A stretch of 32,086 bases of DNA from a virus, in the IMG/VR virus record IMGVR_UViG_3300020420_000042, positions 1 to 32,086 of that record; one strand, written 5' to 3'. Made by a program: the position numbers and the translations under genes. The stretch's first letter is position 1, and the number at the start of each line of letters is the position of its first letter. Below, piece by piece: positions 2,196-17,935 of this stretch. A model generated the notes under the pieces. It was given only the letters and a program-made list of their open reading frames with translations, searched no databases and was not told the DNA's origin.

Positions 2196-3272
2196 CTAAT
2201 TACGAAGAGTAATTGATAAACGTGGAGAGTATTCCCCTTGCGTTTGAAAATCACTAGGATCTAAACCCGCATCATCAAATTTACTTTTATCGTACTTAGA
2301 TGGTGACTTCTGCGAATACAGAGACACCGATCCCCAATCAGCAGAAATCTTTTTACTATCTGCTTCTTTAAGAATTTCTTTTATATCTTGTTCTAATTGT
2401 TTTACCTCTTTTGTTTTTGCTTTTGCTTCTTGATTTAATTTATGCCTAGCTAAAACCTTTTCATGTAATCTTTCTGTAATGGCTGCCGAAAAATTTGAAC
2501 CTTCGACACTTGGAATGCTAGACAGTTCTGTGTCTAGACATATTTTTTTATAAGGACAATAGATACACTCATTGCCTCCTTCAATTTTTCCTTCTGGTTC
2601 TGGCAGGTTTTGCAAACTAAATTTTGTGAAGACTGAAATTGCTCTGCTTCTCAAACCTAAAGCTACCTTTTCATCAAACGGAATAACCCAAGACTTTATT
2701 TGATTTACAAAACTAGCATTTATATATGTAATAACTGCATGAGTTGGAAAGTAATCTGAAGTACGTCTAACTAAATCCATACCCTGTTGCACTTGCATTC
2801 TATGTTGAAACTTTGGCTCTCTTAAATTATCAAATGCTCTAGGATCAATGGACTTTAATTCATTGTAAAGACACTTTGTAAGTCTCTTTTCTCCATTCTC
2901 TTCTTCAACTTCAAACACTTCTCTTGAAATAAACAAACCATCAGGAGTGGCACTTTGATAAGTATTCATATCTACTAACGTCTGTTGTCCCTCATCAGTT
3001 GCCCAAATTAATTCTACTTGACTATCTTTCAGACTGTCTTGCATTGAGGGAACTGCCCAATCTTCTATCATGTTACCACGTTCTGCCGCCCCTAAATCTT
3101 GTACAAAATCTGCATCAACAGGAGCATCATGCTTGTCATAGACAATGGATCTGATACATCCACCTATTGCAGAAGCACCTACAGTTTTCTTTCTGTCATG
3201 ACCTCCCCATGTTTTACTGTCTGAATTTTTAGATATATTTTTTAATATTAGATTGTTAGTTTTTAATAACAT
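2196..3272 (-). CDS. PD-(D/E)XK exonuclease with iron-sulfur cysteines (Cas4/RecB-like)
   Basis: Probable DNA exonuclease for recombination or end processing, 358 residues. The nuclease core is visible as ATPDGLF (D111) and YNELKSID (E138-x-K140), the D...E-x-K signature. Four cysteines are placed as in Cas4/AddB-type iron-sulfur nucleases: C39 in the N-terminal GGCIRS segment, then C236, C239 and C245 in ECIYCPYKKIC. A lysine/glutamate-rich helix around residues 275-310 (HKLNQEAKAKTKEVKQLEQD) is a likely coiled coil. It lies between the SNF2 helicase and polymerase operon members. A 167-base leader containing a long inverted repeat (3322-3431) precedes it. No Cas1, Cas2 or CRISPR is nearby, so a role in phage replication or recombination is the sensible reading. 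Confidence 0.88.
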   Translation of the reverse strand: MLLKTNNLILKNISKNSDSKTWGGHDRKKTVGASAIGGCIRSIVYDKHDAPVDADFVQDLGAAERGNMIEDWAVPSMQDSLKDSQVELIWATDEGQQTLVDMNTYQSATPDGLFISREVFEVEEENGEKRLTKCLYNELKSIDPRAFDNLREPKFQHRMQVQQGMDLVRRTSDYFPTHAVITYINASFVNQIKSWVIPFDEKVALGLRSRAISVFTKFSLQNLPEPEGKIEGGNECIYCPYKKICLDTELSSIPSVEGSNFSAAITERLHEKVLARHKLNQEAKAKTKEVKQLEQDIKEILKEADSKKISADWGSVSLYSQKSPSKYDKSKFDDAGLDPSDFQTQGEYSPRLSITLRN

Positions 3273-3730: not shown

Positions 3731-5369
3731 GTCCAAGCTCCTTTTTTAAATCTTCTTTTAATTCTTCAAATACATTTAGATCATTCTTAAAATCTCCATC
3801 AATTACTGCATTACTCATACTCATTTTCTTTTCTAATAAACTGTAAAGTTTTTCATCAAAAGTATTTTGAGCAACAATATAATTAATAGAACAGGACTTA
3901 GTTTGACCACTTCTATGTACTCTATCTTCAGCTTGTATCATATCCATTGGAGAGAAGTTTGTCTCCACCATTAAAACATTATTTGCTTTTTGTAAATTCA
4001 AACCTGTAGATCCTACACCTAACGTAAGTATAAGTATCCTCTTGTCAGACTTTGGATTTTGAAAGCGAGATATGTATGCATCTCTATCTTGTTTAGTAGT
4101 AGAACCTGTAAGTAAATCAACTTGCTTATGCAAACTATTATTATCAACACATGTTAACATATAGTATAGATGTTCGGCTACTCTTACATGATAGGTAAAC
4201 ACAACTAACTTTTCATCATTGGATGCTAAAAAATCTTTTATCCAATCAATCGCTACCTCTGTTTTACAATGACCTAATTCTGTATAAGCCTCTTGAAATG
4301 TTTTATGATCTCCCATACCAAAGTTTACCTTACAAGGGATGACTGTTCTTGTTTTTGGAGGAAGGTCTAAACAATCATCCTTTGTAACTCTATGCATATG
4401 TCTTGATAGTTTTGCATGTAGTTCAACCTTTCTCGAAAGACCATCGGCTACATATCCAAACTTACCCATATGTCCATTACAATAAGTCCTAGTGAACTGA
4501 TACCAATTATCGAACTCACTTGGTGCTACTATGTTCAACGGTGGAAATAAATCTACAGGTCTATTTATAATAGGTGTCCCTGATAGACCTATAAAGTAAT
4601 CCGTAGTTTTAGCCAATTGTATAATCGCTTTAGTCCGCTTTGCCTTGGGGTTCTTAATGTAATGGCATTCGTCACATATAAGGTATTCCGATTTCCAAGT
4701 GGCTTTAGTTTCCGACTTTTTGTAAGCATCGGCTCTCGCATATGATACGAGTAATATTTCTCTTCGCTCATCGCCCACTCCTTTTATATTAGGGTATATG
4801 TAAAGTTTATAATTAGGAAGTAATCTTTTGATCTCTTGTTCCCATTGCATCATAACACTTGCGGGTGTAAAGATCACAACTCTATTAGCCTGTATAGCAT
4901 TAATAGAAAGAATAGCTGAAATAGTTTTACCTGTACCCATCTCGTGACCGAGTATAGATCTCCCATTATTTTCTATCCAATGACAAACCGCATCTATCTG
5001 ATGGTCATACGGTTTTACACCAAACTTATCAAGGCTTTCTGACCAATCATTCGTAACTCTTTTCTTAAGTTCTTGGCTACGTTGCTTATAATACATGGAA
5101 CACTTAGCCATATGATCAAGCATTGTCTGATTGACATTCATTTTACAACCTTTCTTGATCAGGTCTTTATGAAAGATATTTGTTATATGAGTATAGACAC
5201 TCAGACATTGTTCATTGGTCATACGTTCCATTTTTACAACCCACTTTTTTTCTTGCAGCAGGAATTTGCAATATGGAATTTTAGTAAATAATGAAGTGAT
5301 CTTAGGATCGGATGAACCAAATAGATGCAGTCGCATGTTTGGTTCTAAAGATAGTTGTACAGTTTGCAT
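3723..5369 (-). CDS. SNF2-family DNA helicase/translocase
   Basis: A 548-residue superfamily 2 ATPase, likely a replication or recombination motor on double-stranded DNA. The motifs appear in order: Q-like YDHQ at 121-124, Walker A EMGTGKT near 143-149, motif Ia IFTPASVMMQWEQEI, DECH box at 233-236, SGTP (motif III) at 263-266, then a C-terminal helicase lobe with LVVFTYHVRVAEHL, LTLGVGSTGLNL and EDRVHRSGQ (motif VI with arginine finger). The spacing and HRSGQ are typical of SNF2/SMARCAL1-like proteins, which often act in fork remodelling. It is first in the leftward operon, with a good promoter at 5416-5444 and GGGAG five bases before the ATG. Confidence 0.95.
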   Translation of the reverse strand: MQTVQLSLEPNMRLHLFGSSDPKITSLFTKIPYCKFLLQEKKWVVKMERMTNEQCLSVYTHITNIFHKDLIKKGCKMNVNQTMLDHMAKCSMYYKQRSQELKKRVTNDWSESLDKFGVKPYDHQIDAVCHWIENNGRSILGHEMGTGKTISAILSINAIQANRVVIFTPASVMMQWEQEIKRLLPNYKLYIYPNIKGVGDERREILLVSYARADAYKKSETKATWKSEYLICDECHYIKNPKAKRTKAIIQLAKTTDYFIGLSGTPIINRPVDLFPPLNIVAPSEFDNWYQFTRTYCNGHMGKFGYVADGLSRKVELHAKLSRHMHRVTKDDCLDLPPKTRTVIPCKVNFGMGDHKTFQEAYTELGHCKTEVAIDWIKDFLASNDEKLVVFTYHVRVAEHLYYMLTCVDNNSLHKQVDLLTGSTTKQDRDAYISRFQNPKSDKRILILTLGVGSTGLNLQKANNVLMVETNFSPMDMIQAEDRVHRSGQTKSCSINYIVAQNTFDEKLYSLLEKKMSMSNAVIDGDFKNDLNVFEELKEDLKKELGHG

Positions 5370-11443: not shown

Positions 11444-11617
11444 TCAGTATGGCAAATTTTTAGTTGCAGTAAATGTAATCTTGCCATCCTTATCTTTTGA
11501 AAGCCAACCATTACCAAGCCATACGTTTTTAAAAGTTTTATTACCTCGCATTTTTTCTAAGATAATTTGTCTTTCGATAGCTTGTTGAGTTGCATCACTA
11601 AGATTTTTAGTTTGCAT
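11444..11617 (-). CDS. Hypothetical 57-residue protein downstream of a type II hammerhead
   Basis: The frame runs from ATG at 11617 (AAGGAGA seven bases upstream) to TGA at 11444. It begins MQTKNLSDATQQAIERQ and ends FTATKNLPY, with a lysine-rich middle (NGWLSKDKDGK). The predicted ribozyme cut lies 63 bases upstream of the ATG, so its mature message would start there. Function unknown. Confidence 0.65.
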   Translation of the reverse strand: MQTKNLSDATQQAIERQIILEKMRGNKTFKNVWLGNGWLSKDKDGKITFTATKNLPY

Positions 11618-11633
11618 TTTCTATCTCCTTTTT

Positions 11634-11722
11634 ATAAATCGAGAAACTGTCTCGTCAGTACATCCCCATCACAGGATGCATACACCCAAGCGAACTTGGA
11701 TGTTTCGACTTTTACGATTTAT
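11634..11722 (-). ncRNA. Hammerhead ribozyme, type II (open stem II)
   Basis: Read on the minus strand: stem II 5' strand ATAAATCG (11715-11722) plus GTC (11707-11709); GAA (11704-11706); stem III ACATCCAAG / CTTGGGTGT capped by TTCG (11682-11703, one U-G pair); cleavage base A17 in GUA (11681); stem I TGCATCC / GGATGTA with an 8-base loop; core CTGACGA (11652-11658); then GAC and CGATTTAT (11634-11641) closing stem II. An internal loop (TAAAA against AGTTTCT) divides stem II. Every invariant core base (CUGANGA, GAA, U16.1-A15.1, H17) is present. The cut falls between 11681 and 11680. The 5' strand overlaps the 3' end of the coding region ending at 11712. Confidence 0.88.
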
Positions 11723-11870
11723 TATTTTTCTCAAGATGGTGAACGATCATTTCGATACGTTCATAAGCAGACAGGTGTGTCTCCACACCGTCAACAAATG
11801 TGTCTGCTTTATCTGTGCTATTATCTAGCTGATGCTTGAGATCATAAGCAACTTGAAGAATTTCTTCCAT
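11712..11870 (-). CDS. Hypothetical 52-residue protein overlapping a ribozyme
   Basis: ATG at 11870 to TAA at 11712. It begins MEEILQVAYDLKHQLDNSTD and ends MIVHHLEKNNKS; mostly helical and acidic. The start lies inside the preceding gene (28-base overlap, different frame). Its stop codon falls in the first strand of the type II hammerhead, so the ribosome finishing here would pass over part of that fold. Function unknown. Confidence 0.6.
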   Translation of the reverse strand: MEEILQVAYDLKHQLDNSTDKADTFVDGVETHLSAYERIEMIVHHLEKNNKS

Positions 11871-13491: not shown

Positions 13492-13539
13492 TTTTCCAAC
13501 TCCTTTTTCTAATAGATATTTATGTGATACTTTTAGGCT

Positions 13540-13591
13540 ACCACGACATATAAAATATGTTTCGACCATGCCAAAGGTCTTCTCAAGTGGC
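13540..13591 (-). ncRNA. Hammerhead ribozyme, type I, with U3/A8 core variant
   Basis: Minus strand: stem I GCCAC (13587-13591); core TTGAGAA (13580-13586) where CTGANGA is expected; stem II GACC / GGTC around loop TTTGGCAT; GAA (13561-13563); stem III ACATAT / ATATGT with TTT loop (13546-13560); cleavage base C17 in GUC (13545); stem I 3' GTGGT (13540-13544). Positions 3 and 8, which form a Watson-Crick pair in the active hammerhead, are both changed (C3 to U, G8 to A), so the pair is kept as U-A. All other core bases are intact. It is homologous to 15740-15796. The cut would fall between 13545 and 13544. Confidence 0.78.
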
Positions 13592-13597
13592 TTAGTA

Positions 13598-13617
13598 GGG
13601 GCAATCGAAACTGCCCC
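13598..13617 (-). terminator. GGGGCA / TGCCCC hairpin upstream of the type I variant hammerhead
   Basis: A 6-bp GC stem with an 8-base loop lies between the VWA stop and the ribozyme. Its 20 bases differ at one loop position from those at 17652-17671. The flanks CAAGTGG (13584-13590) and CCACTTG (13617-13623) are also complementary and could form a longer stem that takes up the ribozyme core. No T-run follows leftward, so a true terminator is not proven. Confidence 0.5.
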
Positions 13618-13630
13618 CACTTGCGAGATA

Positions 13631-15739: not shown

Positions 15740-15796
15740 CTACCATGACATATAAAATATGTTTCGATCTTGCTAAAGGATCTCTTCAGATGGCAG
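15740..15796 (-). ncRNA. Hammerhead ribozyme, type I (open stem I)
   Basis: Minus strand: stem I CTGCCAT (15790-15796); core CTGAAGA (15783-15789); stem II GATC / GATC (15779-15782 with 15766-15769) around CTTTAGCAA; GAA (15763-15765); stem III ACATAT / ATATGT with a TTT loop (15748-15762); cleavage base C17 in the canonical GUC (15747); stem I 3' ATGGTAG (15740-15746, one G-U pair). The full consensus CUGANGA...GAA...NUH is present. The cut falls between 15747 and 15746, 46 bases before the VWA start codon. Compared with the copy at 13540-13591, stems I and II each show a compensated base-pair change. Confidence 0.92.
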
Positions 15797-15799
15797 AAA

Positions 15800-15828
15800 A
15801 CTGCCCCAATAAAAACTATTGGAGCAGT
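15800..15828 (-). terminator. Hairpin after MoxR gene, next to the type I hammerhead
   Basis: Leftward RNA forms an 11-bp stem (ACTGCTCCAAT / ATTGGGGCAGT, one U-G pair) with a 7-base loop, then UUU, eight bases after the MoxR stop. It resembles a weak intrinsic terminator. GGCAG of its 3' arm can instead pair across TTTT with CTGCC of ribozyme stem I, so the two folds may compete. Confidence 0.55.
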
Positions 15829-17586: not shown

Positions 17587-17644
17587 TTACTGATTTCATG
17601 CTTTCGCAATCATCAGATCGAATAACACATTCGATGATCAGTAA
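17587..17644 (-). ncRNA. Hammerhead ribozyme, type III (open stem III)
   Basis: Minus strand: stem III 5' TTACTGAT (17637-17644); cleavage base C17 in AUC (17636); stem I ATCGAAT / ATTCGAT (17629-17635 with 17617-17623) capped by GTGTT; core CTGATGA (17610-17616); stem II TTGC / GCAT with a GAAA tetraloop (17598-17609), whose first pair is U-U rather than the usual G-C; GAAA (17594-17597); stem III 3' TCAGTAA (17587-17593). The 58 bases satisfy CUGANGA, GAA, A15.1-U16.1 and NUH exactly. The cut falls between 17636 and 17635. The short stem II with a U-U closing mismatch may lower activity. Confidence 0.9.
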
Positions 17645-17651
17645 TTTTTAA

Positions 17652-17671
17652 GGGGCAATCAAAACTGCCCC
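17652..17671 (-). terminator. GGGGCA / TGCCCC hairpin upstream of the type III hammerhead
   Basis: A 6-bp stem with an 8-base loop, 19 of 20 bases identical to 13598-13617. It is seven bases upstream of the ribozyme in the leftward transcript. On the plus strand a T-rich run (ATTTTTT) follows, so it could also stop rightward RNA. Confidence 0.5.
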
Positions 17672-17697
17672 CTAATAAAATTTTTTGCTCAGAGTGA

Positions 17698-17820
17698 TTA
17701 AAAACAATCCTGTACCTTGAGAGTGGATCGTGTTTTGCACCAAATCGGTCTTACAGGCTTTTTAATCGTTATGGCTAGATATTTACCCATTCTAGTAGTC
17801 AGATTTTTTAGTTCGCACAT
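17698..17820 (-). CDS. Possible 40-residue basic protein at head of the MoxR transcript
   Basis: ATG at 17820 to TAA at 17698, starting MCELKNLTTRMGKYLAITIK and ending TLKVQDCF. It is basic, with no strong ribosome site. It would make the gene, GGGGCA hairpin, hammerhead, gene order seen at 13.6 and 15.8 kb hold here too. The short length leaves chance possible. Confidence 0.3.
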   Translation of the reverse strand: MCELKNLTTRMGKYLAITIKKPVRPIWCKTRSTLKVQDCF

Positions 17821-17935
17821 AAATTCAGTAAACTTTTTTAATTACTGCATTATCAAAGCGGTCACTTCAATCTGCGGGGCGGGCGGTCAGTCCTTAAAAA
17901 CCTTTATTTCTCCTCTGTCTGTCAATCTCCCTTGG

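Follow-up and report, generated by a model that had tools for sequence, protein, structure and literature searches.

A gene of a marine phage carries a ribozyme at its stop codon. The window, an uncultured virus record of IMG/VR with 32,086 bases and 36% GC, harbors a type II hammerhead that sits between a 52-aa gene and a 57-aa gene. With a probability of roughly two in three, this hammerhead is a self-cleaving intercistronic processing site that forms a protected 3' end on the upstream mRNA. Phage structural genes occupy the right part of the window. A leftward operon encodes a CobS/MoxR-like AAA protein, a CobT/VWA-like protein and numerous small genes. The named phages searched gave no near DNA match to the window, and its CobS/CobT-like and terminase proteins have distant relatives only. 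The ribozyme, its parts and the two flanking genes are as follows.

11634-11722, minus strand: type II hammerhead ribozyme with an extended (closing) stem II, assigned by RF02276, a covarying stem I and the z-score of the fold
11715-11722 with 11634-11641, minus strand: closing (outer stem II) helix, 8 bp
11707-11709 with 11649-11651, minus strand: core stem II, 3 bp
11703-11706, minus strand: GAAA
11682-11703, minus strand: stem III
11681, minus strand: A17
between 11681 and 11680, minus strand: predicted cleavage site, GUA^U
11659-11680, minus strand: stem I
11652-11658, minus strand: CUGACGA core segment
11681-11711, minus strand: 31-nt tail of the upstream cleavage product (spacer, GAAA, stem III hairpin, A17 end), MFE -11.6
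11712-11870, minus strand: 52-aa gene, AYDLKHQLD family, 63 relatives in IMG/VR
11444-11617, minus strand: downstream 57-aa gene, 14 relatives, Shine-Dalgarno (SD) sequence AGGAG at about 11625-11629

The order in the fold is closing helix, internal loop, core stem II, GAAA, stem III, GUA^U, stem I and CUGACGA. The type II consensus (CUGANGA, GAA, A15.1-U16.1 and H17) is matched by CUGACGA, GAAA, an A-U pair and A17, with stems I and III closed and stem II open. The hairpin of the upstream tail stops 1 nt short of the 3' end. Rfam at the gathering score found no match in the window and none in 20 relatives; lowered thresholds and a descriptor were therefore used. The ribozyme aligns end to end with the RF02276 (Hammerhead_II) model at 36.3 bits, 0.7 below the gathering score of 37, which is the cut-off of the curators and not a structural criterion (E 8.4e-6 in a 501-nt search, 1.3e-7 in a genome search). 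The ribozymes of relatives score 28-31 bits against the same model. The fold has an MFE of -28.7 (z -3.8), and the descriptor matches a hammerhead with comparable stems 3 times per 1.93 Mb of Markov-shuffled window sequence. The sequence-only reading had placed a type II hammerhead on this strand at these coordinates, and the Rfam alignment, the fold and the intact core bear out its strand, extent and description.

All 28 pairs are formed in each of three haplotypes, among which the core is invariant apart from H17. Two-sided changes occur at 3 pairs, every one in stem I. A closing helix of at least 8 bp has a chance probability of about 0.02; its covariation is uninformative because 7 of its 8 pairs never vary. 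Inspection revealed no clear 4-bp pairing for a pseudoknot between loop I and the 3' tail, a feature of most, not all, type II ribozymes, and the internal loop of stem II may replace it. GUA is a cleavage triplet slower than the fastest ones.

The stop codon of the 52-aa gene (TAA/UAA, 11714-11712) lies inside the stem II internal loop, and the last codons of the gene, AUAAAUCG, supply the closing helix with its 5' strand. The overlap of stem II with the end of the gene, as first proposed, stands for the closing helix and the loop, which hold codons and stop, but not for the 3-bp catalytic stem II, which strictly starts 2 nt past the stop. Searches with the 52-aa protein revealed seven relatives (L016-L018, L019, L020-L022) in which the position of the ribozyme and the stop are unchanged. 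The spacing from stop to GAAA is 5 nt and is fixed across all haplotypes. Conservation of both frame and stem, which had been suggested as a check, is thus found, and since the seven relatives keep one arrangement, the position of the stop does not drift. The terminal codons AAT AAT AAA TCG TAA are identical in every ribozyme-bearing relative, and 0-1 of the last 6 codons differ per pair among four haplotypes, which is suggestive only of synonymous constraint. In G008 (L109), the ribozyme and the 52-aa gene are both lost and the neighbors kept, indicating that the ribozyme is dispensable; the preceding gene now carries the NNKS-stop tail. A scar, AATAATAAATCTTAATAGTTGACAG, is visible at about 4600 (minus strand) of L109, where gene and ribozyme were lost. 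The joint constraint that had been assumed for coding sequence and ribozyme is weak overall: the helix never varies on its coding strand, but an identical 11-nt tail survives where the ribozyme is lost.

The ribozyme is found in a close clade only and is absent from the wider 52-aa family (L039-L094). The idea that it is part of the family was rejected, as none of 37 wider-family loci read past the stop had one. L019 and L020 have identical ribozymes and 3' flanks, while their 52-aa genes are just 80% identical in DNA, which suggests that the ribozyme region was exchanged by recombination.

The operon contains three further hammerheads, so that it holds four in all three permutations (I, II and III), syntenic in relatives.

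15740-15796, minus strand: type I hammerhead, core CUGAAGA, found by descriptor (Rfam HH9 20.6 bits, below the cut-off)
13537-13591, minus strand: type I hammerhead variant with C3U and G8A, core UUGAGAA, U3/A8 also in relatives
17587-17644, minus strand: type III hammerhead with a U10.1-U11.1 mismatch, recognized by sequence and in relatives L098, L105, L109 and L485
17676-17924, minus strand: conserved structured non-coding leader RNA, with stops in all frames and covariation

The first type I ribozyme lies between the CobS/MoxR-like AAA gene and the CobT/VWA-like gene, is preceded by a hairpin at 15803-15825, and is present at the same site in L098, L105 and L109. The variant lies between the VWA-like gene and the next gene, behind a hairpin at 13598-13618. 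Its U3/A8 core occupies the syntenic site in the window, L098, L100, L103 and L109, and the same site in L105 and L107 has canonical CUGAUGA (C3/G8), a clean natural covariation of the 3-8 pair. Natural variants with U3/A8 or with the U10.1-U11.1 mismatch are known, and hammerheads with a covaried 3-8 pair are active in vitro (PMC3088659). The window's U3/A8 type I and U-U-mismatch type III ribozymes resemble these, but unlike the known variants both share an operon with a canonical type II ribozyme. Type III elements occur in series in L095 and L096. In L097-L109, the motif TTGACAGAC stands shortly before the SD of many gene groups, often directly after a hammerhead, and could be part of a promoter or an RNA element; it is absent just after the window's own hammerheads.

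The type III ribozyme is located upstream of a 77-aa gene and is preceded by a hairpin at 17650-17673. A small ORF considered upstream of it was dropped, the region having stops in all frames. This region corresponds to the leader RNA of about 240 nt (17676-17924, minus strand; GGTTTTTAAGGACTGACC...TTGGTGCAAAACACGATCCACTC), which has two-sided changes at 14 of 50 predicted pairs among 6 haplotypes, matches no Rfam family, and recurs as a motif in 12 IMG/VR stretches. The leader RNA terminates at the hairpin and the type III hammerhead, which would make its 3' end. L478 (about 4220-4390, plus strand) and L483 (after the motif, minus strand) share a near-identical insertion of about 160 nt within the loop of the terminating hairpin, perhaps a small mobile element or an intron-like sequence.

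IMG/VR was scanned with the type II core pattern, giving at least 120 stretches, and 156 type II ribozymes were kept once near-identical contexts were removed. In this sample, which consists of the first contigs with exact core matches, is biased to GC-rich phages and uses mechanical ORF calls, 59% of the 156 have the stop of an ORF of at least 40 aa 0-8 nt before GAAA, compared to 3.9% for random positions of the same strand and 1.3% for the corresponding place on the opposite strand. For ORFs of at least 100 aa the values are 31% and 1.5%, and with stricter greedy gene calling 32% and 0.8%. Spacings of 2-8 nt together are about 18 times as frequent as at random. An SD plus start codon is found 15-45 nt past the core in 67% of viral type II ribozymes versus 6.8%. 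The window's ribozyme is typical, with a stop spacing of 5 nt and 34 nt from core to SD and start. Stop-codon proximity is therefore the common layout of phage type II hammerheads.

Types I and III were taken from a second scan. Among type I ribozymes, 74% have a stop from 20 nt inside to 5 nt before the outer pair. Type III ribozymes, some of whose matches come from related phages, stand 16-40 nt from a stop in 61% of cases and have no hairpin of their own 5' of the cleavage site. The gap from stop to cut folds at z <= -2 in 24 of 30 cases (median z -3.7), while ordinary sequence after stops has a median z of -0.05 with 11% at z <= -2. With all hammerhead types, the upstream RNA would end with a stop, a hairpin and the cut. 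Since types I and II bring their own hairpin 5' of the cut, the non-trivial part is confined to the nearness of the stop and, in type III, the additional hairpin. The types do not share a clash between ribosome and ribozyme, because type III cores lie beyond the terminating ribosome. This common outcome, together with a type III ribozyme behind a non-coding RNA, favors 3'-end formation over control of cleavage by translation.

It is proposed that the leftward operon is transcribed as a long message, which the type II hammerhead would cut 31 nt past the 52-aa stop. The upstream piece would end with the stop, a short spacer, the ribozyme's stem III hairpin and a 2',3'-cyclic phosphate, and no transcription terminator would be needed to protect this hairpin-capped 3' end of the mRNA. 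On the downstream piece, a 5'-OH and the stem I hairpin would come first, the cut lying 63 nt upstream of the next start codon. The other three borders with a hammerhead would be processed likewise, including the one that follows a non-coding RNA. Stop proximity would then reflect a need to have the hairpin as close as possible, plus what a compact operon allows, without recourse to translation. Observed in support are the intact core, covariation, synteny in seven relatives, four syntenic hammerheads in one operon, and placement in the survey. From these we infer catalytic activity in this phage, stability of the product through its protected 3' end, and a benefit. Compactness of the operon would by itself squeeze any 60-nt element in between stop and SD; this, the loss in G008, the GUA triplet and the bias of the survey weigh against the proposal.

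The cut could instead chiefly serve the downstream gene, whose leader, bearing a 5'-OH and the stem I hairpin, would be freed to the benefit of stability or translation. The SD and start found past the core in most viral type II ribozymes are in keeping with this, and in haloviruses HF1/HF2 a transcript 5' end was mapped to the cut of HHphage, a hammerhead upstream of a helicase gene for which a leader-freeing role was suggested (PMC3088659). However, the downstream gene is swapped while the upstream gene and ribozyme persist. The gene after the ribozyme in L016 is unrelated to the 57-aa gene, the 103-aa homologue directly follows the ribozyme in L019 and L020, and the more distant carriers of the 57-aa gene, L004-L015, showed no such ribozyme. 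A dedicated pair of ribozyme and 57-aa gene was rejected on this comparison. The SD of the 57-aa gene is also free, not sequestered, in the predicted uncleaved fold. A role chiefly for the downstream gene is unlikely, with a probability of about one in five. In L002 (about 3160-3270) and at the same place in L003, the 57-aa homologue is followed by an element that combines a hairpin arm carrying GAAAC with a second CUGAUGA core between the complementary ends CTGATCA/TGATCAG. This element resembles two fused hammerhead halves and could be a permuted or tandem hammerhead.

It is less likely still that hammerheads are neutral or selfish passengers, which hop among compact phage intergenic gaps without benefit, their tight spacing reflecting compaction. 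Presence varies at one site (G008), the L019/L020 regions look recombined, and the wider 52-aa family lacks the ribozyme, all as expected of a passenger. Yet the compensatory changes in stem I and at the C3-G8 pair of the neighboring ribozyme show selection for an active fold, synteny extends over divergent relatives, and compaction leaves the extra hairpin of type III unexplained.

The least favored explanation, if by little, is that of the sequence-only reading, in which ribosomes that terminate on the 52-aa gene sit over core stem II and GAAA, delay or prevent cleavage, and so couple expression of the downstream gene to translation. A ribosome at the 52-aa stop would, given the size of a terminating ribosome's footprint, cover 11702-11717, which includes core stem II and GAAA. 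With this part masked to 11702, only stems I and III remain and no catalytic fold is left; some influence of translation on cleavage is therefore possible. The 5-nt spacing in all haplotypes, the 2-8 nt spacings of most viral type II ribozymes, within reach of a terminating ribosome, and the overlap of many type I ribozymes with the stop also agree. Against this, type III ribozymes here and elsewhere lie outside that reach, one of them behind a non-coding RNA, the NNKS-stop tail remains after ribozyme loss, and the brief stay of each terminating ribosome would at best slow cleavage. The claimed regulation of the 57-aa gene is not supported, as relatives carry different downstream genes, and there is no sign that any effect of translation serves it. 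Gating by translation is improbable for the window's hammerheads, whose most likely role is to form mRNA 3' ends and keep cistrons apart.

RNase III processing of T7 early mRNA also cuts a polycistronic phage message between genes and leaves hairpins at 3' ends; there a host protein cuts, whereas here the RNA itself is predicted to do so. A discontinuous hammerhead lies close behind the stop codon in the 3' UTRs of rodent Clec2 mRNAs, but is eukaryotic, split by a long insert and not intercistronic. In Perreault 2011, gene-flanking hammerhead clusters were seen to cleave in vitro, and one did so in E. coli as well; a role in transcript processing was proposed (PMC3088659). That work already covers all types of phage hammerhead, the clusters they form and the processing proposal; the window's type II ribozyme is new. 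It shares permutation, core, stems, flanking of single genes in clusters and proposed processing with the RF02276 ribozymes of bacteria and phages (PMC3088659), but has an 8-bp extended closing stem II, a stop codon in the internal loop, A17 instead of the consensus C17, and no clear loop I-tail pseudoknot by inspection. HHphage of HF1/HF2 is likewise a phage hammerhead in an early operon with a transcript end at the cut, but has a variant core with an insertion and is described as 13 nt upstream of a start codon rather than at a stop (PMC3088659). The placement rule was not found in the open-access main texts searched, and the main text of Perreault 2011 never mentions stop codons (PMC3088659).

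When bacterial and phage hammerheads were described in 2011, what they do was not settled. Phage hammerheads of the three permutations may be a general device for forming the 3' ends of coding or non-coding products, a reading we hold tentatively, at somewhat less than even odds. Every upstream product would then end in a stop or RNA body followed by a hairpin and a cyclic phosphate; type III, which has no hairpin of its own before the cut, would borrow an extra one. The placement rule, with a stop directly before types I and II and a further hairpin ahead of type III, suggests a concrete, testable function, terminator-free mRNA 3' ends. In the window, one operon brings the three permutations together, and its conserved non-coding RNA would be cut at its end by a ribozyme.
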